25,318 nucleotides of DNA from IMG/VR virus record IMGVR_UViG_3300032093_000771, positions 1 through 25,318 of that record; one strand, 5' to 3'. Positions 1,872-25,318 of this stretch are shown here, piece after piece. The stretch's first letter is position 1. The number at the start of each line of letters is the position of its first letter. Both the position numbers and the translations under genes were made by a program. The notes under the pieces are model-generated. The model did not search any database, had not been told where the DNA came from, and saw only the letters and a list, made by a program, of their open reading frames with translations. This DNA is from a virus.

Positions 1872-4800
1872 TTATATTAATCTGTAGGTTGTTTTCACCG
1901 TCCAAGCAGATGTCGTTGTTGTAGCTACTAGCTGGGCGTTAGCACCTCCTACTTCTACCTTCAACGTAATATCAGAAGTACCTCCAATATCAAGTGTTGA
2001 ATTATCTGTATATTGAACGCTTGCACCATTCCACACCGACATTACTGTACCGGCCCTAGCATTTGATCCTGATGATACTGTGTAATCAAAGAATGCAGCT
2101 GTATATGACCCTGTATTCAGGGTTATGATAGCTGTTTCTGCCCCGGCCGGTGCTGTTCTTGCTCCTGCAGAGTATAGTGAAGATGAGATGTTAAATACGG
2201 TAGCATAGCTTGCTGTAGCAGCATAGGATGCCGAAGTGACACTTAGTGAACTTGTAGATTGATAGAATAATTGACCGGTAGACGTATTATAGCCTACGAT
2301 ATTAGTTTGATCAACATTAGTCAGGCTTGCGGCCAGAGATCCAGTAATAGATACCGATCCTGTAAACTGCTGTGTATCACTTAACTGATTACCGAACCTG
2401 TTACTACCTGAAGAATAAACGATTGAAGAAGTGACAGTCTGTACAACGAGGGTCTGTGCCGTAATTGTACCTGTAATAAGTGCATTAGAGGCGGTAACGT
2501 TTTGAGTGATTGCTGCAGATCCTGTAAATTGATGGATATTACCGTCAAACTTATAATTACCGTTACTGTAATAGTAGCTGTTTACACCAGGATCATAGAG
2601 TGCGATTGATTGATCGCTGTTAGCGCTATAAAGACCTGCTTCTCCTGCAGTTATTCCAGCTCTAGCACCTAAATAAACGCCGTCTACGCCTAATGGATTA
2701 ACTTGTATCTGTCCGGAAGCAGCACCTCCGTTGATTGTTAATTGATTTGAGGTGTAATTCCAAGTAAAATCATTTGACCCAGTTACTGCGCTTCCTGATT
2801 TATACAATATCCTTTGATCACTTATTGAAGGTACAAAGAAGTTATTTCTAATAGTAAAGTTATCTGCTGAAGAGGCTGTAGCTGCATAAGATGCAGATAT
2901 AGACTGTAATACATAAGAAGCTGTTGCTGAACTAATTGCTCTAGATGCAGAAGTGGCGAAGGAGGCACTACCTACGCTTAATCCGCTGGATCCGGTACGG
3001 TAGAGTTGGCCGACAGCTGAATCCCAGATCAATACATCTGTAGACGGAGATCCTTCTGCTAGGTTCGGGAAATATACCTTAGCTTCACCGCGCAAGTCTA
3101 CTTGTGCTCTTACGTCCCCGAGAACATCCAGACTGTAAGAAGGTGCGTTAGTAAATAAACCTACGTAGTTATTGTTATTTGGGTCTTGATAAAAAGCACT
3201 ACGGCTTAATGCTGTATTTGTTTTCCAAAGAGCTACGTAATTTGTTGTACCTCCAGTTACACTTGATGCAGAAGTCGCATTCAAGGCATAAGAGCTTGAA
3301 AGGGCATAAGACGCACTAGTTGCAAACGATGCCGATACTGCGTTTAGTACGTAGGAAGCAGTTGTTGCTGTAGCTGCATTTCCTGAAATAGAAGCACTGA
3401 TAAAGGATGCGTTAATCCATTTTGCTTGAGTTGTACTGTAAACTAGAGGTTGGTAATCAGTTGGTCCAGATATGTTAACGTCAGACAGGCCGGATAGTGT
3501 TTGTGTTACTACTGATCCTCCGCCTCCAGATCCTCCTACTTGCCTAAATAGGCCTCCGGGGTAGATTGTAAAAGTACTAGGGTTTGTAAATACACCGCTA
3601 CCGTTAATTACAATAGCTCCAAGGTAAATAGCATTAGCTGCTGTATTTGGTGCTTCAACAAACGATTCAAACGGGATGTTTGCAAGAGCATCATTTTCAG
3701 TAGCATAAATGGCGTTACCGTAGTAAACCACTATTGCTTTAGTTACACTATTAGGGAACCAGAACACTCTTTGAACAGACCAGTTACCGGCGCCTACGTT
3801 TGTTAAAACACCATTATTAGAATATTGAGTTGGATCTACAGTTGTAAAACCAGCACCAGCATTTGTATTATAAACCCAGCTAGATCCTGATTGATAGTAT
3901 CTAAATATTTTAGATATATTAGTACCAGAGTCAACTGTATAATAAGGTTCATTTGGATCTATTGTGTAATTAGACCCAGGTGCATAAGCAGTACCGCTTC
4001 CTACTATTAAACTTCCTGTACTTGATCCACTAGGAGATAAAGTATAACCAGATAATTTTAATGGTCCAAATGCTCTATTAAATACATTTTGTGATTGTTC
4101 AAAACCATATGCTACAGAAGGTTGTGTTTTAAAACCATTAATTGTAGATCCGTTTTGGAATAGTACGTTACCAATGTTTATTACAGTATCAAATTGGCCG
4201 TTAGAGAAAGGTGTTCCTTGAGCAAAAATGTTGTTTGTTGAATCAATACCAACAAATGCTTGGTCATAAGATGCTGTAAAAGGAGCAATACTAGCTGAAA
4301 GATTAGGCCAGTTTAAGTATTGGACTGTAGGGTATGGATTATCATTTAAACTTGCGTTTAAATTAACTATAATACCGCTACCACTTGATATCTGGTAAAC
4401 TGTGGATGATTGTGAGGTAATTACACCGCCGTTTAATAAACCTGTGTATAAATTACCTTCTAACCAACGTAAACGAGTTGTATTACTATATCCAGCTCCA
4501 TTTTGAGAGAAATATAAGTCATTTGTAGTTCCACTTACATAAATGTAAGAGGCAGATATTGATGTGTTTATATTTGTTGTTACTGGAAGGAATCTAGTAT
4601 AACCTGTCTGCTCTATGTCACCAAAAATATTAATAGTTGGTGTTGAGGCGCCTTGAGATCCTGATATAGTCAGGCTTCCAGATAGCGATGTATTACCTAC
4701 TAGGTTGTTATTACCTACTTGAGTAGTAGATCCAGTAATATTTAAACTACCGGTTAATGTTGTAGATCCAATTAATGTATTTGATCCGCTAGTAAATAAA

Positions 4801-5750
4801 CTACCAGTTACTGTTTGGTTACCAATAAAGACATTTGAACCGCTTGTACTTAACGAACCTGTTAATGTGTAGGAGCCGGTAAGTTGTTTTGAATTAATCC
4901 AAACACTACCGCTCTTAATAAGTAAATCGCCGTATGAAGATGTTGTTGTGTTATCTACTACATCGTGAAGTTCTCCTATTTCATACCCATTATCGACCTT
5001 AACGAAAATTGATCCTACTGTTGCACTAACTCTTTCTACGTATCCTAGTCTTACACTATGGCTTGGGGCAGTGGGAGGTGTCTGAGTGTAGTCCCCTGGG
5101 GTAGAACTGAGGAAAACGAGCTTTCCTGCTGTCAATCCTAGGGTGTTTAGCTTTCTTAAAGGACCTTCAGTAATTACCCATCCTGTACCTCCTGCAGCAA
5201 TAGTTTCGGCAACTAACCCTAATGTTCCTGCAGAAGAAGGATCTCCGGAATCGTTTGCTAATTTGACGGCAACCCTGTTTCCTTGTGATCCGGAAATATA
5301 GACTGCCTGTCCTTTTGTCAGAGTGGTTGCTTCTGCATTATATACATATGCATAAAGCGTTTCACCGACAGAGTACTGTACGGTTCCGCCAGCTAAACCT
5401 AATTGTAATGTTCCATCTCCACTATCCCATCCTAGCCTTCCTTCTGCAAGTGTGTAGCTAGCTGTAGTATCGAAATCAATATAGTCTACATTTTGTATAG
5501 CTCCTGATACTGTAATATTTACGGCATAAGAAGCAGTCTGTGCGTAAGAAGCACTCAATACGCTACTTGCTCCATAAGGGCCATATACGTTGGATGCAGT
5601 AACAAAAGAGGCAGTAGTAGCGTTTAACGCCCAGCTAGAAGTACCAAACAGTGATCCTGTAAAGGACTGGGCATTGACGTTTGTAGCTACTACGAGAGAA
5701 TTCAGTGATGCATCTGATCCACTGACAATGAGTTTTTTCCAATTTGGCAT
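1872..5750 (-). CDS. Large repeat-rich tail-fibre-like structural protein (1292 aa)
   Basis: The N-terminus MPNWKKLIVSGS is paralogous to that of the 456-aa fibre gene at 7460. Segments in order: an N-terminal cap and TGSLFGTSSWALNA/TASYA repeats (1-90); a globular module (about 95-265) with TKGQAVYISG, GTLGLVAETI and IFVKVDNGYEIGELHDV, a module I recognise from many phage structural proteins; a TGSL/SGSN ladder likely to form beta-helix (about 290-367); a large AT-richer module (about 370-740) with FGPLKLSGYTLSPSG and YYGNAIYATENDAL; a glycine hinge and LSDVNISG linker (about 740-775); more TASYA repeats; and a beta-rich C-terminus ending TTSAWTVKTTYRLI. No S74 motif is seen. Likely a trimeric fibre or baseplate appendage; host-contact role inferred. 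The ATG at 5750 is preceded by an A/T-rich leader without Shine-Dalgarno. Confidence 0.8.
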   Translation of the reverse strand: MPNWKKLIVSGSDASLNSLVVATNVNAQSFTGSLFGTSSWALNATTASFVTASNVYGPYGASSVLSASYAQTASYAVNITVSGAIQNVDYIDFDTTASYTLAEGRLGWDSGDGTLQLGLAGGTVQYSVGETLYAYVYNAEATTLTKGQAVYISGSQGNRVAVKLANDSGDPSSAGTLGLVAETIAAGGTGWVITEGPLRKLNTLGLTAGKLVFLSSTPGDYTQTPPTAPSHSVRLGYVERVSATVGSIFVKVDNGYEIGELHDVVDNTTTSSYGDLLIKSGSVWINSKQLTGSYTLTGSLSTSGSNVFIGNQTVTGSLFTSGSNTLIGSTTLTGSLNITGSTTQVGNNNLVGNTSLSGSLTISGSQGASTPTINIFGDIEQTGYTRFLPVTTNINTSISASYIYVSGTTNDLYFSQNGAGYSNTTRLRWLEGNLYTGLLNGGVITSQSSTVYQISSGSGIIVNLNASLNDNPYPTVQYLNWPNLSASIAPFTASYDQAFVGIDSTNNIFAQGTPFSNGQFDTVINIGNVLFQNGSTINGFKTQPSVAYGFEQSQNVFNRAFGPLKLSGYTLSPSGSSTGSLIVGSGTAYAPGSNYTIDPNEPYYTVDSGTNISKIFRYYQSGSSWVYNTNAGAGFTTVDPTQYSNNGVLTNVGAGNWSVQRVFWFPNSVTKAIVVYYGNAIYATENDALANIPFESFVEAPNTAANAIYLGAIVINGSGVFTNPSTFTIYPGGLFRQVGGSGGGGSVVTQTLSGLSDVNISGPTDYQPLVYSTTQAKWINASFISASISGNAATATTASYVLNAVSASFATSASYALSSSYALNATSASSVTGGTTNYVALWKTNTALSRSAFYQDPNNNNYVGLFTNAPSYSLDVLGDVRAQVDLRGEAKVYFPNLAEGSPSTDVLIWDSAVGQLYRTGSSGLSVGSASFATSASRAISSATASYVLQSISASYAATASSADNFTIRNNFFVPSISDQRILYKSGSAVTGSNDFTWNYTSNQLTINGGAASGQIQVNPLGVDGVYLGARAGITAGEAGLYSANSDQSIALYDPGVNSYYYSNGNYKFDGNIHQFTGSAAITQNVTASNALITGTITAQTLVVQTVTSSIVYSSGSNRFGNQLSDTQQFTGSVSITGSLAASLTNVDQTNIVGYNTSTGQLFYQSTSSLSVTSASYAATASYATVFNISSSLYSAGARTAPAGAETAIITLNTGSYTAAFFDYTVSSGSNARAGTVMSVWNGASVQYTDNSTLDIGGTSDITLKVEVGGANAQLVATTTTSAWTVKTTYRLI

Positions 5751-5844
5751 ACTATATTGTGACAGTTTCTTCTGCGGTTAGATACATACACTTATGCCGT
5801 GTATACGCCTACTTCCCTTACCGGGCCAACAGTGCTGTCCTTAA

Positions 5845-5853
5845 TATAAATAG
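5845..5853 (-). promoter_or_regulatory. Candidate late-promoter motif CTATTTATA
   Basis: The sense strand reads TGCTATTTATATTAAGG, just after the stop of the small gene at 5861 and 96 bases before the ATG at 5750, the longest leader of the set. The leader also contains a weak 6-bp hairpin (5786-5804). Confidence 0.45.
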
Positions 5854-5860
5854 CAGAGAA

Positions 5861-6067
5861 TCAGGGAAGCTTAATATAGTAATCCTGTAGTTTTAACACG
5901 AGTTCAAAGATTTTTTGAACGTGTTCTCCTTTAAAATGAGATTCTCGAACGAGATTCAAAAGATGCTCAACTTCGTCTTTTTTTAAATTTAAAACAGGTA
6001 AAGGAGCCGGTTTGGGCTCCTCTACGCTGTTGTTATTTACAGTTAGATTTCTTGCGTTAAACCCCAT
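5861..6067 (-). CDS. Small helical protein of unknown function (68 aa)
   Basis: The start chosen is ATG at 6067 (MGFNARNLTVNN), which sits 22 bases after the stop of the fibre gene at 6090. The open frame extends to 6115 (84 aa), but that start would overlap the fibre gene by 26 bases. After a short polar, proline-rich N-terminus (EEPKPAPLPVLNL), the rest is predicted helical: DEVEHLLNLVRESHFKGEHVQKIFELVLKLQDYY. The FKGEHV and LVLKLQ pattern resembles small proteins I associate with fibre regions of large aquatic phages, but I cannot name a function. No signal peptide or membrane segment is seen. It lies between two fibre paralogues and may be an assembly helper; that is inference. Confidence 0.6.
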   Translation of the reverse strand: MGFNARNLTVNNNSVEEPKPAPLPVLNLKKDEVEHLLNLVRESHFKGEHVQKIFELVLKLQDYYIKLP

Positions 6068-6089
6068 AACTATCTTTTTTAAAAACCTA

Positions 6090-7460
6090 TTAAGAATAAA
6101 TCCAAATTGTTTCATCGCTTCCTACGAATATATTACCTTTTGCTACATACTTAGCAGGTGCTGTGGTTGGATCTCCGCTAGCTCCCTCTACTACTGCTGC
6201 CATGAATGCATCAGGTGTGAAAGATGAAAGAGAAGCGTTGAATGATCCTGTTACAGCCCATCTTTGGGTTCCGTTATCGAATCCGAATAGCTCTCCTACG
6301 TCTTGAGTTGCTTGCTGTACAACTAAACCTCCATCGCCGGGCGTATTTGAACCAGAAGCTAAGAGGATGAATCTATCTTTGATCTCTAAGTTAGTTGTAT
6401 TTTGGAAGCTAGCAGTACCAAGTACAACTAAGTTGTTATTAACAGTTAGGTCGGTTACTTCAACATATCCAGGTAGTCCGATAGTTACTGTTTGTGCAGA
6501 AGCAGTAACGTTGATCTCATTGAGTGTACCTGCAATTGTTAATCCTTGGTTGAGGAGATCAACAGTGGTAAAGGTTGAAGGTTCTGTAGAATAAGAACCG
6601 GTAATCTTCAAGGTCGTTACTAGTCCGGTCAACTGAGATCCGTCGCCTTTGAATGATCCGGTAAATGAACCGGTTAGGCTTGAATTAGTTCCGGTCAATT
6701 GAATTGAACTAGCACCGCTGACTACTGTTCCGTTATCAGAAAGACTGGTATTTGCAAATGCATCACCGGTCCATTTTGTAATCTTATCAGTTGTTAAGCT
6801 AGAGGCTCCAGATACTGCTACAGTAGCAGTTGCACCACCGTCATAAGTAAAGGCTGTAATACCAGTACCTTGAGTTAAATCAGGTAGGTTGGTAACTCCT
6901 ACGAATTCGCCGGCAAATGAACCTGTAAACGAACCTGTGAGCTGTGTTTCTGTACCTGTAAATCTCAGGCTAGTGCTACCGTAAACGTAAGTACCGTTAT
7001 CAAATACACTAGAATTCACAAACTTACCATCTGTAGAATCCCATTTTGTAATTTGATTGTTATTTAATTGAGCAGCACCGCTTACTTCGATTTGCACGTT
7101 TGTACTACCGTCAAAGCTAAATGGTGCAATACCTCTACTTGCTACTTGAGAAAGACTTCCAGTAGTTCTTAGAGCAAGAGATGCAGTAAGTGCTTGTGAA
7201 GCGCTAGCAATGCTATTCATTCCTAGAGGACCATCAACACCAGAGCTTAGGATATAAGAAGCAGTAGTTGCAGTAAATGAACCGGTTCCTTGATAGAAGA
7301 ACTGGCCAGTTGCTGTATCGTAAGAAACGATGTTAGCTTGGTTTGAATTACTCAGACCAGCTTTCACCGATCCGGTTACTACTAGCCCGTTATTTGCTAT
7401 TCTGAGACTATCTAGTTCGGCTGCACTACCCGATACTACGACTTTTTTCCAATTTGCCAT
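6090..7460 (-). CDS. Tail-fibre-like structural protein (456 aa)
   Basis: The product starts MANWKKVVVSGSAAEL, closely matching the N-terminus of the 1292-aa fibre gene; the two probably share an attachment cap. Two similar ladders follow (about 105-165 and 190-260), each with the pattern of a TASA/GIAPF- or GITAF-type segment, ITKWT/D, NG, then LTGSFTGSF; this is an internal duplication. The centre holds an LTVNNNLVVLGTASF beta-helix rung, and the C-terminus (about 360-456) is a globular domain with DGGLVVQQATQDVGELFG, RWAVTGSF, PDAFMAAVVEGASG and a terminal GSDETIWIYS. It is a fibre or appendage component, with host contact inferred. The ATG at 7460 is preceded by AAATCAAA, no Shine-Dalgarno. 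The stop lies 22 bases before the preferred start of the 68-aa gene. Confidence 0.78.
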   Translation of the reverse strand: MANWKKVVVSGSAAELDSLRIANNGLVVTGSVKAGLSNSNQANIVSYDTATGQFFYQGTGSFTATTASYILSSGVDGPLGMNSIASASQALTASLALRTTGSLSQVASRGIAPFSFDGSTNVQIEVSGAAQLNNNQITKWDSTDGKFVNSSVFDNGTYVYGSTSLRFTGTETQLTGSFTGSFAGEFVGVTNLPDLTQGTGITAFTYDGGATATVAVSGASSLTTDKITKWTGDAFANTSLSDNGTVVSGASSIQLTGTNSSLTGSFTGSFKGDGSQLTGLVTTLKITGSYSTEPSTFTTVDLLNQGLTIAGTLNEINVTASAQTVTIGLPGYVEVTDLTVNNNLVVLGTASFQNTTNLEIKDRFILLASGSNTPGDGGLVVQQATQDVGELFGFDNGTQRWAVTGSFNASLSSFTPDAFMAAVVEGASGDPTTAPAKYVAKGNIFVGSDETIWIYS

Positions 7461-7481
7461 TTTGATTTAAGGTTTTACGGT

Positions 7482-7490
7482 AATAAATAG
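7482..7490 (-). promoter_or_regulatory. Candidate late-promoter motif CTATTTATT
   Basis: The sense strand reads AACTATTTATTACCG, 23 bases upstream of the ATG at 7460 and just after the stop of the 450-aa fibre gene. Confidence 0.5.
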
Positions 7491-7496
7491 TTATTT

Positions 7497-8849
7497 TTAG
7501 TCCAGACCTACGTAGAAACTCGTAGAAGTAAAATATAATCCCCCATTTGGTGCTGTACCGGCTGGTGCTACTGAATGAGTTGCTATTTGAACTATACTCT
7601 GACTTACAGTTAATACAGGTTGCTGTGTAGTTTGGTTACGTACATTAAACAGATTGCTATATATGTCGAAAAAACTAGCTGTATTTATTGTTAAGTAGTT
7701 AGCACTACCTGATCTTACAGTTACAATATTGGTTTCTCCTTGTATTGCATTGAAAATCGTAGAGCCGGTTACGAGAAAATTACTGCCTGTAAATATCAGA
7801 TTTACAGAAGCGGAGGCTGCGTTGGTAGATCCGTCTGATAAAATCACTCTACCTGGACCTGGATTGGCAATAGTATCAAAGCCTACACCTGGTGAACCTA
7901 CAGGAATGAATGCGAATTGATCGCCATCATTAGGATCATTACCTGCTGATGTTAACTGCGATACTCCGTATGTTTCGTAGCCGGTTTCAGGTGGAGTAGT
8001 GCTAGTAATTTGTAATAACTTGTAAGTACCGCCTTCGGTAAGGCTAACGAGTTTAATTATAGTACCTACAGTAAGATTATCTAAGTAGCCAGAGAAACTA
8101 ACACTTGGATTATAGGCAAAATTATCAAAAGATGCTGAATTCGGTGATGAGGACCATACTGCATTGAGTCTAAAGTAGCCGGGGCCAGGATCTACTCCTG
8201 TTAAGAGACTTGAAGTGTATCGCCATATAGCTAACTGTGCGCCAGTATCAGCACCGACTAGTAATCCGTTAACGAATAACGAACCGGTAACATTTGCGCT
8301 ACCTGTTACACTTAAACTGCTGCTAATTATAGCTGAACCAGTGAAAGGAAATATTTGAGCATACGAAGCGGTAGCTGCAAATAACGAATATGAAGCACTT
8401 AATGCATAAGAAGCGGAAATTGCGTTTGAAATTGAACCGCTAAAGTATGAAGCAGTACCAGCATTGAGGGCATATGATGCTGTGTTTGGAACTAACGTTG
8501 ATAAGTTAATTAAGAAAGTAGTTCCGTTTCCTTTTGTAAAAGTAATAGAAGGGTTGGTGAAAGAAGCGGTTAAGAGAAGGGATCCGGTGTCGCTTCCTGC
8601 AGCGTTGAGTGCGTAAGATGCTGTTATAGCGTTGAGAGCCCAGCTAGAAGTACCAAATAAAGATCCAGTTGCGCCTGCAAAAAACACTACAGAACTAGAA
8701 AACTCGGCCGATCCGGTAACCCCTAGGCTGCCGGACATTATAATGTCGCTACCACTTACTCCGTTCAACGCATATATAACCCTTTGGAGCTGATCGGCTT
8801 CAATTATTTGGCCGGGTGATATACCCGCGAGTGAAATAGTATTGGCCAC
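7497..8849 (-). CDS. Tail-fibre-like structural protein (450 aa), GTG start
   Basis: The start is GTG at 8849 (product MANTISLAGISPGQ). The N-terminus (residues 1-35) includes GQIIEADQLQRVIYALNG, unlike the NWKK cap of its two paralogues, so it may dock elsewhere. It continues with TGSLFGTSSWALNA and TASYALNA repeats, of which GCCCAGCTAGAAGTACCAAA (plus strand) is identical to DNA in the 1292-aa gene; an FPFTGSAI block shared with the kelch fibre; a mid-protein domain (about 205-330) with VSFSGYLDNLTVGTIIKLVS; and a beta-rich C-terminus ending FTSTSFYVGLD. It is the first fibre gene after the neck genes. Role as fibre or appendage is inferred from repeats and position; ligand unknown. Confidence 0.75.
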   Translation of the reverse strand: MANTISLAGISPGQIIEADQLQRVIYALNGVSGSDIIMSGSLGVTGSAEFSSSVVFFAGATGSLFGTSSWALNAITASYALNAAGSDTGSLLLTASFTNPSITFTKGNGTTFLINLSTLVPNTASYALNAGTASYFSGSISNAISASYALSASYSLFAATASYAQIFPFTGSAIISSSLSVTGSANVTGSLFVNGLLVGADTGAQLAIWRYTSSLLTGVDPGPGYFRLNAVWSSSPNSASFDNFAYNPSVSFSGYLDNLTVGTIIKLVSLTEGGTYKLLQITSTTPPETGYETYGVSQLTSAGNDPNDGDQFAFIPVGSPGVGFDTIANPGPGRVILSDGSTNAASASVNLIFTGSNFLVTGSTIFNAIQGETNIVTVRSGSANYLTINTASFFDIYSNLFNVRNQTTQQPVLTVSQSIVQIATHSVAPAGTAPNGGLYFTSTSFYVGLD

Positions 8850-12272: not shown

Positions 12273-13988
12273 TTAGCTAGCTTGAGCTACCTGAAGGTCA
12301 GATACATATACCTTACCATAGTACTCAGGACGGATCATCTTCTTAGCGTAACGAGTCATGATACCTTTACGTGGTGTGAAGGTATTTGGATCGTACACTA
12401 GAGGTGTCATGATCAATGGTACATATGGAGCATAAACTGCACCACACTCAAGGAATTGGTTACCACGGAAGCCCATTAAGATTGTGTTCTCAGTCATGTA
12501 TGGGTTTTTGTAAACCTTGTAACGACTGTTAAGAGCACCGATCTTTTGAACACCGAAGGCATACTTCATAGTGTCTGCAGCTCCGTCTGTGTCAGCAGCA
12601 AATCCTGGGATAGACTCAAGAATTGTAGCTACAGTTGGAGAACATACTAGGAAGTTAGCACCACCACGTAAAGTCAACTGATGGATCTTGTTAGATACAG
12701 CCTGAAGCTTGATACCCAAAGTTTGGAACCAAGACATTTGGTTGTAATAAGCACCGGCAGTATTGCTTACATAAGCAGTACCAGCAGCGTTGATTTGCTG
12801 GCCGATTTGAGCAGACCAGTTAGCAACTGTCTGTGCATTCTCAATCAACATGTCAAGGATTTCGAGGTCGATCTCAAGAGAGATGTACTCAGAAAGCATA
12901 CCAGTCAATTCAGCTTCAGCGTCAAGACTATGGTAAGCATTCAAATCCTGCGCGAATTCAGGAGTCCACTGTGCTTTCAACTTACGAGTCTTAGCAGAGA
13001 TGGTCTCAGACTTCATCTGCACGTTGATCTCAGGGATAACGATAGAGGCAGAAGCAGCTGCGTTCGGGTTAGAGAATGGAGTAGGTGTATCTTGAGGAGC
13101 ATCCTCGAAGTCACCACGAGTTGCGAAGTTAGTAGACTTGTTATAGAACAATACTACACCAGGTACGGCGTTATCGGCACCAGAACCAGAAAGTGAAGTT
13201 TGTACTGTAGCAAGTGTTGAACCGCTAACAAAGAATACCAAGTTAGCACCGCTAATAACTGTGAAGTCATTGATAAGAGTGCTAGGAGAGATAGACGTAT
13301 TGTTGCTACCGGAGATTTCGAAAGCACGAACTCCGTTAGTATCGATCACCAAAGAACCAGTGTTGATGCTGATTTTGATCATCTTGTTGTCTACTACAGA
13401 CTGAGAGTAAGCTGTATTAAAGTTTACATCTTGGAAAGTAGCAAGAGTAGCAGTAGCTGAACCGGAAAAATAAGAAGCAGAGAATTGGTTAATTGAATAA
13501 CCAAAGCGGCCCTGGCCATAAAGACCTCCGGAAGCTAAGTTACCGAATCCGCTGTTAGGAGTTTGGTTCAAAGTACCATACACGGATTGTCCTTTTTGGA
13601 ACGGTGTAGGGATATTGTTACCATACTGGAAGTCTAGATAGAATACTAGACCGGCAGGAAGGTTCATTGGTTGAACACTAACGAACTCTTTAGAAGCGAT
13701 TTGTCCGAAGATCTTACGAACAAGAGGTAGAGCTACACCAGCCCACTGCTCACCATTACCAGGAGTAAAGGTAGCACCGTTGGTTACACCACCACCAGTT
13801 GAAGATTGCTCGAGTACGAGTTGCTTGGCTTGGTTCTCAAGAATAACGGCCATATTTGTGCGGTCGTAATCCTTCAAACCCTCAAGAAGACCAGATTTGG
13901 CCCATTTCTTGGCAAGCTTTTGGCTAACACCCATTTGATCGTTGTATGGGTTAGCACTTTCTAAAAGGGATTGCACTAAGTTTGACAT
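12273..13988 (-). CDS. Major capsid protein, T4 gp23-like
   Basis: The product is 571 aa (T4 gp23 is 521). gp23 forms the hexamers of the head shell, with an HK97 fold, and is trimmed by the gp21 protease. Seen: a helical N-terminal propeptide with AVILENQAKQLVLEQ (47-61), aligning with the ENQ region of gp23; cleavage after E60 (V-L-E) or E51 (I-L-E) would leave a mature arm with GATFTPGNGEQ (71-81); then VRKIFGQIASKEFVSVQPMNLPAG (90-113); an enlarged low-complexity insert (about 160-315); and the family core SETISAKTRKLKAQWTPEFAQDLNAYHSLDAEAEL (327-361), with ISLEIDLEILDML following. It follows the scaffold gene by 33 bases, and its A-rich leader AAACATTTCTAAAAA has no Shine-Dalgarno. No promoter motif lies just upstream, so it is probably read with the scaffold gene. 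Confidence 0.93.
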   Translation of the reverse strand: MSNLVQSLLESANPYNDQMGVSQKLAKKWAKSGLLEGLKDYDRTNMAVILENQAKQLVLEQSSTGGGVTNGATFTPGNGEQWAGVALPLVRKIFGQIASKEFVSVQPMNLPAGLVFYLDFQYGNNIPTPFQKGQSVYGTLNQTPNSGFGNLASGGLYGQGRFGYSINQFSASYFSGSATATLATFQDVNFNTAYSQSVVDNKMIKISINTGSLVIDTNGVRAFEISGSNNTSISPSTLINDFTVISGANLVFFVSGSTLATVQTSLSGSGADNAVPGVVLFYNKSTNFATRGDFEDAPQDTPTPFSNPNAAASASIVIPEINVQMKSETISAKTRKLKAQWTPEFAQDLNAYHSLDAEAELTGMLSEYISLEIDLEILDMLIENAQTVANWSAQIGQQINAAGTAYVSNTAGAYYNQMSWFQTLGIKLQAVSNKIHQLTLRGGANFLVCSPTVATILESIPGFAADTDGAADTMKYAFGVQKIGALNSRYKVYKNPYMTENTILMGFRGNQFLECGAVYAPYVPLIMTPLVYDPNTFTPRKGIMTRYAKKMIRPEYYGKVYVSDLQVAQAS

Positions 13989-14021: not shown

Positions 14022-15218
14022 TTATTTAATTCCAGCAAGCTGTTGCCATCTTGATACGAAGGCATCGGCTTCAACAATCGGACGAGCTGGAGCGCTACCG
14101 ATTGGTTTTGATGCAAAACCTACAGACTCTTTAAGTGATGATTTTTTAGTATCAGCACTGATAGATTCAAGTAAGGTTTTGTAAGTGTTCTCAACCTCTT
14201 TAACAGATGTTGCTCTGTCAAATGCGTTGATAACTTTTGTTTTTTGTGATTCAGAAAGGTTCTTTGCCTTGAAAATTTTGTTAACGTAAAGAAGTTTTGC
14301 GCTAAACAAATTGATTTCGTTCAACTCGGTCTTCAGAGCCTTGATAGTCTTAACGGCTTCGTTAAGTTCTTTCTTCATCTCTTCTACTTTGTAAACGTCT
14401 CCGGCTTTGGAATCGATCTGACCGCCAGGAATTTCTCCAGCAGCAGCTCCTTCTTCAACCTTCTCTTCTTTTTCAAGTTCGGCAAGAATTTCATCAAGAG
14501 AAATTTCTTCTTCTCCTGCTTCGATTTCTTCACCACCGCCTAAATCGGCTGCAAGATCAGTACCGCCATCTAGTGGGGCTTCAGGAGCCATTCCACCGCC
14601 CTGTAATTGCATGAATACATCACGAATGATGTCTTTCAATTCTCCTACAGTGATGTCAACTACTTCTTGCTCTTCACCACCTTCAGCTGCTTCGACGTCT
14701 TTAGTCAGGTCCTCACCAGCCTCTTCGGCTCCGTGATCTTCCTTTTCTTTTTCATCATCTTCTTCAGCTTCGTGAATGGAGCTTTTTGCCTTTTCAGGAT
14801 ACCCGGTACCGCCTTTAGAGGTATGGGCTTTTTCATCGTAACCAGTTTTCTTTTTTTCAGTAGCGCTACCAGTGTAGCCGTCTCCTTTAACATGAGCATC
14901 CTCTTCTAGATCAGCCTCTTCTTCTACTTTCTCTTCAGAAAGGGCGTCTAGCTCGGCTAGGATCTCATCTAGTGTAGACTCTTCCATTTCGGTAGCTTCT
15001 TTATGCATTTCATCTTTTTTATGATGCATTGCAGCTTCCTCCATTTCAGTAGCCTCTTCCATGGTATCGTCCTCTTCTTTAGTGAGTTCCTTTTCCATGG
15101 TCTCCTTGATAAAAGGCTCAAAATGTTCAGCGAGAGTAGTTCTGGCGGCAGCCATTGCAGTCTCACGAACAGCCTTTGCGTCAAGGATTGCTTGCTTAAA
15201 CAATTCTTGATTTTCCAT
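14022..15218 (-). CDS. Prohead core scaffolding protein, T4 gp22-like
   Basis: The product is 398 aa and strongly acidic. gp22 builds the transient core inside the prohead and is then destroyed by the gp21 protease. The N-terminal helix (1-45) is followed by a Glu-rich, probably disordered part with a duplicated block LDEILAEL...EEKVEE (83-100 and 241-256), then a coiled coil (about 276-305) and a conserved-looking helical end (LFSAKLLYVNKIFKAKNL, 304-321; VENTYKTLLES, 342-352). Candidate L/I-x-E protease sites include LAE in both copies of the block, LLE at 349-351 and LKE at 362-364. It ends SRWQQLAGIK, sharing Q-x-L-A-G-I with three small proteins. The protease is upstream and the capsid gene downstream, the T4 order 21-22-23. 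ATG at 15218 follows GAAACAAATTTAAG. Confidence 0.88.
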   Translation of the reverse strand: MENQELFKQAILDAKAVRETAMAAARTTLAEHFEPFIKETMEKELTKEEDDTMEEATEMEEAAMHHKKDEMHKEATEMEESTLDEILAELDALSEEKVEEEADLEEDAHVKGDGYTGSATEKKKTGYDEKAHTSKGGTGYPEKAKSSIHEAEEDDEKEKEDHGAEEAGEDLTKDVEAAEGGEEQEVVDITVGELKDIIRDVFMQLQGGGMAPEAPLDGGTDLAADLGGGEEIEAGEEEISLDEILAELEKEEKVEEGAAAGEIPGGQIDSKAGDVYKVEEMKKELNEAVKTIKALKTELNEINLFSAKLLYVNKIFKAKNLSESQKTKVINAFDRATSVKEVENTYKTLLESISADTKKSSLKESVGFASKPIGSAPARPIVEADAFVSRWQQLAGIK

Positions 15219-15358: not shown

Positions 15359-15988
15359 TTACTTAATGCAACACACACCGCTTTGGGTGCAAATAATATC
15401 AGAAATAAGTTTATTTATACTACTTTTTCTACCTTCTCCGCCATTTGGGTCGTAAGATTCGTTTAATCCTCCAACCGGTCTTACGTAAGCACCGTACGTA
15501 GATGGAGTTGATACAAAGTCCCAGCAGATTAATTCTAAGTCATCTTCTACCTGAACAAGGCCTTCACCAATTGGTGTTACCGATCCCATAGCACGAGAAG
15601 AAACTCCTACTGTTATATTGTTCATAAACAATTCACGTAAGATATTTCCTGATGGAGTATCTAAAATTTCGAATTCACCCATTAAATTTTTTCCCTCCCA
15701 CCAAAGACGTGTAATGTTATGACAAACGTTCTTGAGGTTGATAACTGAAGATTCAGGGTGATCGAGTTCGCCAAGTGCTCTTCTTTCCTTTATAGGCCCG
15801 TCAATATAGAGTTGAACTTGCTTTGCAAGAGTATCAAAATCGTAAATACGTCTGTTAGCATTAGGTTTGTCGGCAGCCTGTACAAGACCGGCTACAATAA
15901 GAGGTGCTTTAGGATTCATTCTAGCCTCATGTAGCTGTCTAGGTAGAGGCGTGAATGGTAAATATTCTATAAGGACTTGCTTATTCAT
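15359..15988 (-). CDS. Prohead core protease, T4 gp21-like
   Basis: The product is 209 aa (T4 gp21 is 212). This serine protease is packed in the prohead core and cuts capsid, scaffold and internal proteins after L/I-x-E. Seen: VAGLVQAADKPNANRRIYDF (32-51), typical of the family; the catalytic His in GELDHPES (His77); the catalytic Ser in TVGVSSRAMG (Ser130/131); and a following WDFVSTPS strand (156-163). The C-terminal tail ends SGVCCIK with three Cys in the last ten residues, which is odd for this family. Its ATG at 15988 overlaps the stop of the 490-aa gene by 4 bases (ATGA), suggesting coupled translation. An AT-only palindrome spans its stop codon. Confidence 0.93.
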   Translation of the reverse strand: MNKQVLIEYLPFTPLPRQLHEARMNPKAPLIVAGLVQAADKPNANRRIYDFDTLAKQVQLYIDGPIKERRALGELDHPESSVINLKNVCHNITRLWWEGKNLMGEFEILDTPSGNILRELFMNNITVGVSSRAMGSVTPIGEGLVQVEDDLELICWDFVSTPSTYGAYVRPVGGLNESYDPNGGEGRKSSINKLISDIICTQSGVCCIK

Positions 15989-17457
15989 TGTGCTTTTGTA
16001 AATACTTGATTGAACTGTGGATCTTTTATAGCTGGATCATTCTGCTGAAAGGATTGCACTTTACCTGTTTTCTTATCTCTAAATAAGAGCTCTTTTACAG
16101 TCTTCATTAACTTATCCTTAAGACTAGCCTTTTTATCTTCTTTTTTTATAAGAGTGTCGCGCATTTCTTTCTCCTGGTCAGGATCGCCAGCAGCTTGCTG
16201 TCCTACAGGATCTTCGTTTACTTTTTCTTCGTTATTACTCCACTTAACCATTGTACGAGGCTTCATCTCACTAGAAGGAAGCTCCATAGTAGTCTTTTCA
16301 GGCTTGATTTTTGTAAGGACGTTTTTCTGCAGGTCTTCTTTGTGACCATCCTGCCACTGAACTGTAGCTGTATGTCCGTCGAATTCGATTACCGATCCCG
16401 GGGTACCGTCACCTTTTTTTTTATAAACCTCCATCCCCTTGTGAAATTCCTCATGATGAGGGTTCTGGGTAGTCATTTCATCGAGAATATGTTCTTTGAG
16501 TGCCATTACCTTCTCCTTACCGGGGGTAGCAAATGCTTCAAGCTTACCTTTAGGAGTTTGGGTCATGTGTTGAAGACCTTTACCGTTCTTGGCTTTTCTC
16601 TTTTCTTTCTTTTCGAGAGTATCTTGTGTGTTAGGCTTAGCATCTTTAGCTACGACCTTCATCTCGTTAGGCTTATCGGTCAGGTTGTTTTTCTTTACAT
16701 CTTTCATTTCAAGATCCTTATCCATTTCCTTTACAGCCTTAAAGTTTGCAAGCTGTAATTGTTTGTAAGCATCAGGATCTTTTAAAATAGTGTCAACGAC
16801 TTTCTTTCTAGCTTTAACGTAATTCTCGTCAGTAATTTCCGGCATCTTTGCAAGTTCATATTGAATGCCATGATAAACCTGATAGTAGTTCAAATGATCA
16901 ATACCTCTATAGGTATCGTTTTCGGCGTTTGGATTATGACCGTAAACGCCTTCAGGCTTTTTTGCTTCGTTTAATCCCAGTGTTCCAAACCTTACTTGCC
17001 CTTTTTTACGATCTCGACGTATTTTAGGGATGCCTATCTTAATATCTTCAAGAGCATAATGTAGATTTTCCCACCAAGCTTTGTTGGTTAAGTATTTAAT
17101 AGCAATACTTTTATCGATTTTATTTCTTTCGACATACTGTTCTACGAGATTTCTGATCATATCTTCTTCTTCTTCTGGATCAGGAGAACCGTTTTGAACA
17201 GTGAAATTATACATTGCATGATCAAGATCATGTGATATTTCCTGGGCAACTGTATAAGGAGCAAGTTTTCTAATTGATTCTGCAGTGTTTGTATTTTCAC
17301 TTAAAATACGCTTACCTTTTAGGATTCTTACAGAATCATCGAAAGACGTAGTAGGTGATACGTGTTGGGGAAATTGCATACGTACATTACGCATGAAATT
17401 ACTTTTGGACATTTTACCCTCTAACAGGTCTTGGTATTGAGCTTGAATATTCTTCAT
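15985..17457 (-). CDS. Highly charged protein of unknown function, probable head/core component (490 aa)
   Basis: I do not recognise a named family. The N-terminus has AQYQDLLEGKMSKSNFMRNVR (6-26) followed by HVSPTTSFDDSVRILKGK (32-49), a pattern I associate with late-region proteins of large aquatic phages; LLE at 11-13 is a possible protease site. A helical region with paired aromatics (KAWWENLHYALEDI, 126-139) precedes a long Lys/Glu-rich, low-complexity part (about 210-335). Residues about 340-386 read like a small SH3/KOW-type barrel (GSVIEFDGHTATVQWQDGHKEDL). The C-terminus is again charged. It lies directly before the protease gene with a 4-base overlap, and where T4 keeps core genes 67/68. 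A core or internal-protein role is inferred. ATG at 17457 is only 5 bases from a TATTTAT motif. Confidence 0.75.
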   Translation of the reverse strand: MKNIQAQYQDLLEGKMSKSNFMRNVRMQFPQHVSPTTSFDDSVRILKGKRILSENTNTAESIRKLAPYTVAQEISHDLDHAMYNFTVQNGSPDPEEEEDMIRNLVEQYVERNKIDKSIAIKYLTNKAWWENLHYALEDIKIGIPKIRRDRKKGQVRFGTLGLNEAKKPEGVYGHNPNAENDTYRGIDHLNYYQVYHGIQYELAKMPEITDENYVKARKKVVDTILKDPDAYKQLQLANFKAVKEMDKDLEMKDVKKNNLTDKPNEMKVVAKDAKPNTQDTLEKKEKRKAKNGKGLQHMTQTPKGKLEAFATPGKEKVMALKEHILDEMTTQNPHHEEFHKGMEVYKKKGDGTPGSVIEFDGHTATVQWQDGHKEDLQKNVLTKIKPEKTTMELPSSEMKPRTMVKWSNNEEKVNEDPVGQQAAGDPDQEKEMRDTLIKKEDKKASLKDKLMKTVKELLFRDKKTGKVQSFQQNDPAIKDPQFNQVFTKAQ

Positions 17458-17613: not shown

Positions 17614-17970
17614 TTAATTTCTTATCAATTCTAATTCATCTTCAGGCCACCAGAACATATAATCTCCATCTTCTTCCGTATTTACAGGTTCAATTAAATA
17701 CCAAGGATTAAACATATTTTCCTCCTCTAAATTATACTCTGTATTTTTCATTATATATTCCGGATCGTTTGGGTCTTCTTCAACTGCTTTCCAGCTAGGT
17801 CTTCTATCTAGTATTTTATGTACAATATTCTCCCCGTAAGATTCTACTGTTTGACCTATTTTGAATTTATAATCAACTTGAAGATTTCCTTGATCGTCTA
17901 CACTCATATCTTCATTGATGATGCCAGCAAGCTTCTGTATTCTTTTTATTTCGTCTAGTCGCTGTTTCAT
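17614..17970 (-). CDS. Small protein with candidate capsid-targeting N-terminus (118 aa)
   Basis: The start MKQRLDEIKRIQKLAGIINE shares its first 20 residues, position for position, with the 119-aa and 126-aa proteins of this window and ends in I-N-E, a fit to the L/I-x-E cut site of gp21-type proteases. The rest looks like a small beta-barrel: DYKFKIGQTVESYGENIVHKI (33-53), then FNPWYLIEPV and DYMFWWPEDELELI near the end, with several Trp. The body does not resemble the bodies of the other two proteins, so the N-terminus behaves like a portable tag. It sits in the head-gene operon between portal and protease genes. ATG at 17970 follows AAATTTAAA. Packaging into the head is an inference; the body's function is unknown. 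Confidence 0.72.
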   Translation of the reverse strand: MKQRLDEIKRIQKLAGIINEDMSVDDQGNLQVDYKFKIGQTVESYGENIVHKILDRRPSWKAVEEDPNDPEYIMKNTEYNLEEENMFNPWYLIEPVNTEEDGDYMFWWPEDELELIRN

Positions 17971-17987
17971 TTTAAATTTAGATAGAT

Positions 17988-18347
17988 TTACATCTGTTTC
18001 TGATTGCTATTTTCTTTATAGTCTCTAATATTATCAGCAATATCATCAAGTTCCCCTACACGATAGTTGAATAAGAGTCTTTTTAGTTTAGGGTACGGAG
18101 TATCTTTTATTTCATCATCAAAACTCTTAATAGCCTGTAATAGATCGTTGTACTCACTAGATTTTTTACCAGTTTCAGTCCATCGCATGATATCATCGTA
18201 ATGTTTTAATAATATATCTCTATTAACAACAATATATTTAACAAATTTTTCTTTATTATCATCAATATCAAAACTCATGCCTTCATTTTCTTTTAAAATG
18301 CCAGCTATACGCTGCATTCTTTTTATTTCGTTAAGCTGTAATTTCAT
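17988..18347 (-). CDS. Small helical protein with candidate capsid-targeting N-terminus (119 aa)
   Basis: The N-terminus MKLQLNEIKRMQRIAGILKE is the best example of the shared tag; L-K-E at 18-20 fits the gp21-type cut site. The body is helical and charged (KEKFVKYIVVNRDILLKHYD, then SSEYNDLLQAIKSFDDEI and VGELDDIADNIRDYKENS), without Cys or membrane segments. Its ATG overlaps the stop of the 299-aa gene by 4 bases (ATGA), and the next gene starts 17 bases after its stop, so it is in the same operon as the core-region genes. I do not recognise the body. An internal head protein is the favoured guess; a plain unknown cytoplasmic protein remains possible. Confidence 0.72.
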   Translation of the reverse strand: MKLQLNEIKRMQRIAGILKENEGMSFDIDDNKEKFVKYIVVNRDILLKHYDDIMRWTETGKKSSEYNDLLQAIKSFDDEIKDTPYPKLKRLLFNYRVGELDDIADNIRDYKENSNQKQM

Positions 18348-24055: not shown

Positions 24056-24526
24056 TTAGGCTTCTGTTTCTTCTGCTTCTGCCTCCTCTGGTGGTGTTTC
24101 TTCTACACCTTCTTCTGGCTCACCAGCTACTTGCTCTTCTCCTTCGGGACCCTTTGTCTCAATAGGATTACCAACAGCTAATAGACGTGCAATAGCATTG
24201 GTAGCTCTTTCTCTTTCACCAATTGTCTGCAGGTAAAACTTCTTTCCCCCTACTGTAGCCTCGTAAGCCTTACCTAAGAAAGTAAGCATAAAGCTTTGTC
24301 CGTTATGCAAAACGATTCTAAAAGTAGTAGGCTTAGGTGCAATAATGTAAATACCTGTAATGTAGTCCTTGAAAGCCGGAGACATTAACATCTCCAAAGT
24401 CTTACGGAGGGTAGGATACTTTTGCAGGATAAAGTTAATAGGATCATCTTCAAAAGATTGAACTTTTGGTTCCATCCTCTCTATTTCGTTAAGTATTAAT
24501 CTTCTTATTATTTCTCTGTTTGTCAT
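24056..24526 (-). CDS. Unknown late-region protein with acidic C-terminal tail (156 aa)
   Basis: The start chosen is ATG at 24526 (MTNREIIRRLILNEIERMEP); a TTG at 24538 would add four residues. Residues about 20-125 form a folded domain: a helical part with DDPINFILQKYPTLRKTLEMLM, then a beta-rich part with ITGIYIIAPKPTTFRIVLHNGQSFMLTFLGKAYEATVGGKKFYLQTIGERERATNAIARLL. The last 25 residues are nearly all Glu/Pro/Ala/Thr and probably disordered. The N-terminal LNEIERM resembles part of the tag on three other small proteins but lacks the AGI-L/I-x-E core. I recall relatives near terminase genes of aquatic phages, without a known function. Its place just upstream of the large terminase makes a packaging or head role possible. 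It ends at a strong terminator. Confidence 0.7.
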   Translation of the reverse strand: MTNREIIRRLILNEIERMEPKVQSFEDDPINFILQKYPTLRKTLEMLMSPAFKDYITGIYIIAPKPTTFRIVLHNGQSFMLTFLGKAYEATVGGKKFYLQTIGERERATNAIARLLAVGNPIETKGPEGEEQVAGEPEEGVEETPPEEAEAEETEA

Positions 24527-24551
24527 ATTCAAATACAATCTTTATTTAAAT

Positions 24552-24932
24552 TCAAGCTATTATTGAATCAAAAATATCATGGTAAGCTTGAGTCTCGACA
24601 GCAGTATCTTTAAACCATTCTTTAAAGTCTTCTACGTCAATATCTCCATGTCCTTTAGCGTGTCCAAGTGCATTTTCCCAGTATCTACGATAAGCTAAAT
24701 TACTCTTAGGATTAACTTGCTTTGCCTGCAAAAGAGCCTTAAATTCATCTTCTGCTTGAAGTATGCTTTCTACGTCATCTCCTAATTCTCCGTCTTCGTA
24801 CATAAGCTCCGGTGTCATCTGGTAGGCGTAGTTAATTGCATCGTCGTAGATAGAAGTAACATCTACATCTTCTTTTAAAATACCTGCAATCTTTTGCAGT
24901 TGACGTACTTCGTTGATTAGATTCTTTTTCAT
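24552..24932 (-). CDS. Small acidic protein with candidate capsid-targeting N-terminus (126 aa)
   Basis: The N-terminus MKKNLINEVRQLQKIAGILK, followed by E21, is the third copy of the shared tag and ends in L-K-E. The body is acidic and helical (TSIYDDAINYAYQMTPELMY, then LGDDVESILQAEDEFKALLQAK and DVEDFKEWFKDTAVETQAYHDIFDSI) and unlike the bodies of the two other tagged proteins. It lies between the endolysin and the 156-aa gene, more than 6 kb from the other two, so the tag is not simply a local gene duplication. ATG at 24932 follows TTAAAAAAAACA, with no Shine-Dalgarno. Function of the body unknown; an internal head protein is the favoured inference. Confidence 0.7.
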   Translation of the reverse strand: MKKNLINEVRQLQKIAGILKEDVDVTSIYDDAINYAYQMTPELMYEDGELGDDVESILQAEDEFKALLQAKQVNPKSNLAYRRYWENALGHAKGHGDIDVEDFKEWFKDTAVETQAYHDIFDSIIA

Positions 24933-24940
24933 TGTTTTTT

Positions 24941-25318
24941 TTAAGATAGTAAATGATGAAACTCTTTAAAATGTTTTATACGATCGGCAAGGCCAATGGT
25001 ACCTCCGTTAACAAGTTTGGTTGCTTTAGTAACTACTGCATCAGTTGCACCTTGATCGGCTACAGCATTTAGCTTACGGCTATTCCAATACCAGGCTGCA
25101 GATAGTAATGGATATTTAGTAGCTACAAGATCTGGATTTGCTAAAATATCAACACCGATTGCTTTACCGAATGCTGTATAGTTATCTTTTCCTGTTAATT
25201 GAATATAACCTCTTCCTCTGTGCTTCCATCCATCCCCTGATGCTTCAGGTCCGTTACCCATTCTACCTCCGTAAATTAAGTTAGCGATTTTTTCTGGTTT
25301 ACGCTCGTATAATTTTGC
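24941..25318 (-). CDS. GH19 chitinase-like endolysin, 5' end beyond window
   Basis: The frame is open to the right edge; 125 codons plus the stop are visible, so the ATG at 25261 is internal. The visible part reads YERKPEKIANLIYGGRMGNG, then EASGDGWKHRGRGYIQLTGK and NYTAFGKAIGVDIL, followed by AAWYWNSRKLN, the AD pair, and TKLVNGGTIGLADR. This is the C-terminal half of the GH19 lysozyme/chitinase fold found in many phage endolysins, which cut the glycan backbone of peptidoglycan. The first catalytic Glu would lie in the missing N-terminal part. No cell-wall-binding domain follows; the protein stops shortly after the GH19 end at HFKEFHHLLS. It is the only lysis gene in the window; no holin is seen. 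The 126-aa gene follows after 8 bases. Confidence 0.88.
   Translation of the reverse strand, partial: AKLYERKPEKIANLIYGGRMGNGPEASGDGWKHRGRGYIQLTGKDNYTAFGKAIGVDILANPDLVATKYPLLSAAWYWNSRKLNAVADQGATDAVVTKATKLVNGGTIGLADRIKHFKEFHHLLS

Follow-up and report, generated by a model that had tools for sequence, protein, structure and literature searches.

A candidate capsid-targeting tag on unrelated small proteins of T4-like phages matches the C-terminal tail of their scaffold

The window, i.e., the whole stretch of 25,318 nucleotides that was analysed (IMG/VR record IMGVR_UViG_3300032093_000771), contains head genes in the order portal, 283 aa, 299 aa, 119 aa, 118 aa, 490 aa, S77 protease, 398 aa and major capsid protein (MCP); the coordinates from the 119-aa gene onwards are compiled in Table 1. 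The sequence-only reading, made from the letters of the window without database searches, had assigned two of three small tagged genes to the slot of the T4 core genes 67 and 68, with a gp21-type protease nearby. Both assignments hold: the two genes lie between portal and protease, and the latter is a Peptidase_S77. By none of the tools used could homology of the tagged proteins of the window to gp67 or gp68 be detected.

All three tagged proteins carry R-(M/W)-Q-K-L-A-G-I near their N-terminus. The longer pattern proposed in the sequence-only reading is correct as to its final Glu (residues 20, 20 and 21), while its beginning, K-x-x-L-x-E, has to be amended for the third protein, which reads K-x-x-I-x-E. 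An AF2 model of the 119-aa protein shows a helix from residue 2 to 22, a linker and further helices; its confidence is low (pLDDT 55), and it is usable for the N-terminal helix only.

Table 1. Positions of the head genes, tagged genes and candidate cleavage sites in the window
Feature	Position	Strand	Remark
Major capsid protein (MCP, gp23 type)	12273..13988	-	phrog_138 E 1.1e-70; candidate receptor of tail/tag
V58-L-E60, candidate MCP maturation site	13809..13817	-	Glu in 100% of 109 relatives, as [VLI]-x-E
398-aa acidic scaffold-slot protein (gp22 position)	14022..15218	-	between S77 protease and MCP
Scaffold C-terminal tail, residues 384-398, ADAFVSRWQQLAGIK	14025..14069	-	same motif as cargo tags
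I381-V-E383, candidate prohead-protease site directly before scaffold tail	14070..14078	-	E column conserved in 73% of scaffolds
L362-K-E364, second candidate protease site, flexible C-terminal linker of scaffold	14127..14135	-	E364 invariant
Prohead protease, Peptidase_S77 (gp21 type)	15359..15988	-	Pfam E 1.8e-24; phrog_207 E 4.2e-46
490-aa core-slot protein	15985..17457	-	relatives L056, L059, L064, L069 with tag replacing usual N-terminal module
118-aa tagged protein	17614..17970	-	no known domain; relatives only in near-identical contigs
N-terminal tag of 118-aa protein, MKQRLDEIKRIQKLAGIINE	17911..17970	-	candidate cut after E20; motif profile
119-aa tagged protein	17988..18347	-	no known domain
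N-terminal tag of 119-aa protein, MKLQLNEIKRMQRIAGILKE	18288..18347	-	E is residue 20
126-aa tagged protein	24552..24932	-	no known domain
N-terminal tag of 126-aa protein, MKKNLINEVRQLQKIAGILKE	24870..24932	-	E is residue 21; on different body in L404-L407

When all six frames of the window were searched with a loose pattern, four places were found, the three N-termini and the C-terminal end of the 398-aa ORF (match 'SAPARPIVEADAFVSRWQQLAGIK-stop'), which reads ...PIVE-ADAFVSRWQQLAGIK-stop. This copy had been missed in the earlier note; it is the key to the finding and suggests what the role of the tag may be. The ORF is considered as the scaffold because of its position between the S77 protease and a gp23-type MCP, its acidic and helical composition, and a weak profile similarity to gp22 (hhalign E 6e-5, probability 65, against S-WAM2 gp22; E 4.7e-4, probability 32, against T4 gp22); hhalign gave no match to the gp22 of P-TIM68 and KVP40. 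In an AF2 model built on an alignment of 69 sequences, with two rows from named phages left out, the C-terminus forms an isolated helix (386-394; mean pLDDT of the last block, 81), and the disordered linker before it contains both L-K-E364 and I-V-E383.

How common this arrangement is was judged from 80 IMG/VR contigs that were fetched by their MCP alone, the motif not being used. Together with the window and the two nearest isolates, these contigs contain 81 matches to the loose motif, every one of them terminal: 35 are within the first 40 residues of an ORF and 46 within the last 8. At the MCP-selected loci the motif ends 72 of the 76 readable ORFs in the scaffold slot, or 51 of 54 distinct C-termini. 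IMG/VR was also scanned, without any constraint on position, for DNA encoding the heptapeptide MQKLAGI. Among the in-frame matches listed, 59/78 end 1-4 residues before the stop, 13/78 start 7-12 residues after ATG and 6/78 are found elsewhere; by chance, these end zones are expected to hold about 11% of positions. A second, N-terminus-biased scan led to an enlarged set of at least 161 distinct N-tagged and at least 173 C-tagged proteins. Among the C-tagged matches listed, 164/173 are encoded directly upstream of MCP, 111 of those with S77 adjacent as well; the remainder comprises 5 at contig edges and 4 other small proteins.

With the G of A-G numbered 0 and figures given as tags/scaffold tails, the columns common to the two sets are, among the matches listed, a hydrophobic residue at -8, R at -6 (84/94%), M at -5 (78/77%), Q at -4 (94/96%), K at -3, L at -2 (89/93%), then A, G, I at +1 and I at +2; W occupies -5 in 20% of the scaffolds listed. 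The frequencies in tags and scaffold tails are nearly equal, also for R at -6, a position outside the search pattern. The enlarged sets were partly selected by pattern, and conservation from -5 to +1 is therefore not independent evidence in them. Independent of the pattern are R at -6, the flanking Glu positions, the terminal placement and the MCP-selected set.

Among the matches listed, tags have [IL] at +2 and E at +4 (80%), scaffolds have I at -15 (69%) and E at -13 (73%), so that in both a candidate protease site flanks the motif on its inner side. Among the 140 tags listed, 133 (95%) have [ILV]xE within 9 residues after the tag, compared to 10% in the bodies of the same proteins and 13% at residues 17-25 of ORFs without the tag; with the stricter [IL]xE the count is 126/140 over a background of 7-13%. 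Near or before the scaffold tail the site is seen in 91 of the 111 listed (82%), against a background of 36%. About 5% of the tags and 18% of the scaffolds listed thus lack a nearby [ILV]xE. When the register is lost, the site mostly shifts, as in LAGI-KSLNE, LAGI-QLNE and LAGI-NE; in relatives of the 119-aa protein the tag reads ...GILKINE (LAGI-LKINE), the [IL]-x-E being retained but moved by two residues. Its persistence despite such shifts favours a cut site over a rigid helix cap. The 109 MCP sequences show the same protease consensus at their [VLI]-x-E site, which by position we take to be the equivalent of the T4 cleavage site at E65. Of course, the tag might direct its cargo to scaffold or core without being cleaved, the proteins then leaving or staying intact with the core, and it is indeed the motif itself, not the Glu, that is most strictly common to scaffold and cargo. 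We consider this unlikely, since in scaffolds and tagged proteins alike [ILV]xE occurs on the inner side much more often than in the background, and matches both the conserved MCP site of the clade and T4 practice (PMC9026906).

Not every copy fits a simple N-terminal leader. Some tags seem to continue into a second helix (IITESEYKEK), and a number of motif copies are internal. The latter occur in acidic small proteins (L258, L266, L327, L213, L205, L133, L136), mostly with x-N-E before and I-(T/S)-E after the motif (MNESFLKMQKLAGIITEAQY), as if they could be excised from both sides. A C-terminal motif is also present on small proteins other than scaffolds, at L129:10376-10609, L200:9121-9978, L266:4005-4724 and L307:4451-5032.

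The IITESEY type of tag resembles the distal half of the Pfam family SHOCT (PF09851), a short terminal helical element, with which some tags share the string G-I-I-T-E-x-E-(F/Y). The tag could then be a small oligomerisation or docking helix for other proteins of phage or host, a SHOCT-like hairpin unrelated to head packaging, in which the Glu is just a helix cap. A composite peptide indeed yields E 0.042, and one of 136 proteins E 0.0098. These scores, however, are far under the Pfam cut-off (14 bits, 14.1 for the composite, versus a gathering score of 27), and membership in the family was rejected. Moreover, the scaffold copy ends before the second helix, [ILV]xE is retained while its distance from the helix varies, and the same peptide ends the protein beside MCP at nearly all MCP-selected loci. 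This explanation appears quite improbable.

The sequence-only reading had also conceded that the motif might be due to chance. As a control, an 11-residue, position-specific profile of the motif was run over whole genomes. Each genome of the clade contains one scaffold C-terminus and 0-4 N-terminal tags (G001 4, immuto 2, G002 0, G003 3, G004 2, G005 1, G048 3, G037 0, Mel-JY01 0), and only two other matches were seen, both internal and of low score. The profile had no match in the T4 and S-WAM2 genomes, and the reversed motif likewise had none. Terminal tags in the clade and none in these controls are more than chance would produce.

S77 is present in 30 of 50 motif-bearing records. Among the 20 without it, 14 also lack MCP, and 13 of these are no longer than 63 kb and evidently partial; the last, G025 (94 kb), has a chance match in a tape-measure gene. 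In the other six, the contig stops at or near MCP, so that the protease would fall outside it. S77 is thus encoded by every tagged record that is complete enough to judge. A motif found equally in phages without a gp21-type protease had been named beforehand as an observation that would speak against the idea; the 50 records checked do not offer it. The tape-measure match, in L153, was dismissed as due to chance, its record containing neither S77 nor MCP.

The presence of S77 alone, in turn, does not predict the tag, since the tag differs from the T4 sequence. A scaffold with a matching tail is the better predictor. In three genomes with such a tail, G002, G037 and Mel-JY01, no tagged cargo was found, and the tag is therefore not essential.

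The tag-bearing phages are a large clade of T4-like phages, mostly uncultured and common in aquatic metagenomes, with very few isolates. In Flavobacterium phage immuto the scaffold (gp067) carries the tail (...IISEVSEQVSRWQKLAGIIK), and two proteins are tagged. In immuto_2-6A these are KNV73_gp083 (record 111675-112139), which starts with MKKQILSEQFRRMQKLAGIITE followed by SQ, and the product of 25061-25456; its scaffold shows IISE directly before the tail VSEQVSRWQKLAGIIK. The scaffold of Microcystis phage Mel-JY01 ends in ...ILNESNNVVERMKKLAGIVK, a LAGI tail, and the profile detected no tagged protein in that genome. Copies of the scaffold's own C-terminus elsewhere in the same genome were likewise not found in T4, S-WAM2 or Mel-JY01. 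A tblastn search of INPHARED with short peptides returned the Flavobacterium immuto phages only, plus a weak match to the Mel-JY01 scaffold. Because such short queries are insensitive, five full T4-like genomes were scanned with a DNA pattern for MQ(K/Q)LAGI, again without a match. In Mel-JY01 a gene for the ribosomal protein bS21 (rpsU; L003:22183-22410) lies within the head operon between prohead protease and scaffold.

The bodies behind the tag are extremely diverse. That one N-terminus precedes unrelated bodies, as a profile search over the genome and its relatives had been expected to reveal, is borne out: a BLAST comparison of at least 140 dereplicated tagged proteins gave at least 113 unrelated clusters (113 among the 140 listed). 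In L404-L407 the counterpart of the 126-aa gene has 58/60 upstream bases and 60/66 bases of the tag region in common with it, and an unchanged tag peptide; behind the tag the body is wholly replaced by that of an 84-aa protein (20/66 bases alike), and a further tagged gene follows, the locus being situated behind the lysin gene. In L290 two tandem genes have tag DNA that is 97% identical and unrelated bodies. Such exchanges right at the end of a tag that is conserved in its DNA, as is the region upstream, could, like these tandem genes, also be read as the work of a recombination platform, a DNA segment promoting gene shuffling, with the peptide as a mere by-product. Yet the choice of synonymous codons in the motif is about as variable across the clade as in the background, which implies that the peptide, not the DNA, is conserved; the six DNA differences between the tags of the 126-aa gene and L404-L407 leave the peptide unchanged; and at the scaffold tail, the C-terminus of a conserved head gene, there is no exchange of bodies. 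We therefore regard a recombination platform as very improbable. Pfam and PHROGs searches on 136 cargo proteins gave scattered weak matches and no usable function; function can thus not be called upon as support. In the window, a conserved gene (24056-24538; MTNREIIRRLILNEIERMEPK...) and a glycoside hydrolase 19 lysin (24941-25261, truncated by the edge of the window) lie on either side of a hot spot at which close relatives gain, lose and swap tagged genes.

The tag is also placed on a head-core protein, as judged from four contigs (L056, L059, L064 and L069) in which it replaces the usual N-terminal module of the 490-aa protein. This module reads KFLYE-VRRD in many relatives and HFIAE-ARM in immuto, and resembles the EFIAEA leader of the T4 internal proteins. 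Possibly, the module and the tag are two alternative targeting leaders.

A common motif, its terminal placement, an adjacent [ILV]-x-E, modular bodies and the co-occurrence with scaffold, protease and MCP are all directly visible in these genomes. The core idea of the sequence-only reading, a portable N-terminal capsid-targeting signal with a candidate gp21-type cut site, is thereby strongly supported by comparative evidence: by the body swaps, by an [IL]-x-E that is kept through register shifts, by the joint occurrence with S77 and MCP and, most of all, by a motif that is identical to the tail in which the scaffold itself ends. The N-terminal peptide is most probably a capsid-targeting sequence that imitates this tail and is removed by the S77 prohead protease. 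We infer from the sequences the following course of binding, packaging and cleavage. The scaffold would end in a short helix, [VFI]-x-R-(M/W)-Q-K-L-A-G-I, on a flexible linker, and this helix would dock the scaffold to the inner face of the forming shell, most likely to MCP, or to the core itself. Unrelated cargo bearing the same helix at its N-terminus would join the core during prohead assembly. The S77 protease would then cut after [ILV]-x-E, directly ahead of the helix in the scaffold and directly behind it in cargo proteins, which would free the scaffold for removal and the cargo bodies within the head. Some of these bodies may finally enter the host with the DNA, which is speculative. 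The most far-reaching version is that the whole clade uses one portable address, a copy of the scaffold's detachable tail, to load more than 100 fast-changing unrelated head proteins, that the same protease releases both, and that the cargo is probably injected; we are evenly divided about it.

Capsid-targeting sequences as a functional class are already known. In T4 a short N-terminal peptide (CTS) is found on IPI-III and Alt, and gp21 cuts it after L/I-x-E (PMC9026906). The present tags have the sequence features of this class: a short N-terminal peptide shared by unrelated small proteins, an L/I-x-E at its end and an S77-encoding, T4-like phage. Their sequence, however, is unlike the MKTYQEFIAEA with which the T4 internal proteins start, and the tag profile finds nothing in the T4 genome, so that homology is not indicated. 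Further differences are the far larger number of cargo families, the occasional C-terminal and internal copies and a motif that copies the scaffold C-terminus, which was not seen in T4 or S-WAM2.

The herpesviruses offer another parallel. In UL26/UL26.5 the scaffold C-terminus binds MCP and is removed by the maturational protease at the nearby M-site, and this C-terminal segment, common to the scaffold and another head protein, brings the latter in (PMC12474303). There, however, what is carried in is the protease, as a fusion with the scaffold, whereas here the passengers would be many unrelated proteins with the segment at their N-terminus. The likeness is one of layout without any claim of sequence relation, and MCP binding is here only predicted. 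A scaffold segment of phage P22 is used to load cargo into engineered capsids (for a review, see PMC9962691). There, too, the cargo enters via a scaffold-derived coat-binding element, yet as an engineered fusion and without a protease, while the tag of this clade is natural and widespread.

A text search of the literature for the tag peptide found no paper. As far as the literature was searched, the tag sequence, its identity with the scaffold C-terminus, the number of cargo families and the body swaps are not described. To our knowledge, the binding partner of the T4 targeting peptide has stayed open; a cargo peptide equal to the scaffold's own tail names a concrete candidate for the docking element. 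If the reading is true, this would be a natural instance of scaffold mimicry used for loading cargo, with a layout like that of the herpesvirus scaffold tail, and phage head cargo could be listed from sequence alone: the search becomes a text search, in which a protein starting with the tag is a candidate for head packaging and possibly for injection. T4 IPI is such an injected internal protein; it blocks host restriction. A short natural address with its cut site could also serve to load proteins into phage capsids.

At 1872-8849 the window contains three adjacent long proteins with abundant SGS/TGS repeats, which probably belong to fibres or appendages; the N-termini of two of them are near-identical (MPNWKKLIVSGSDASLNSL, MANWKKVVVSGSAAELDSL).
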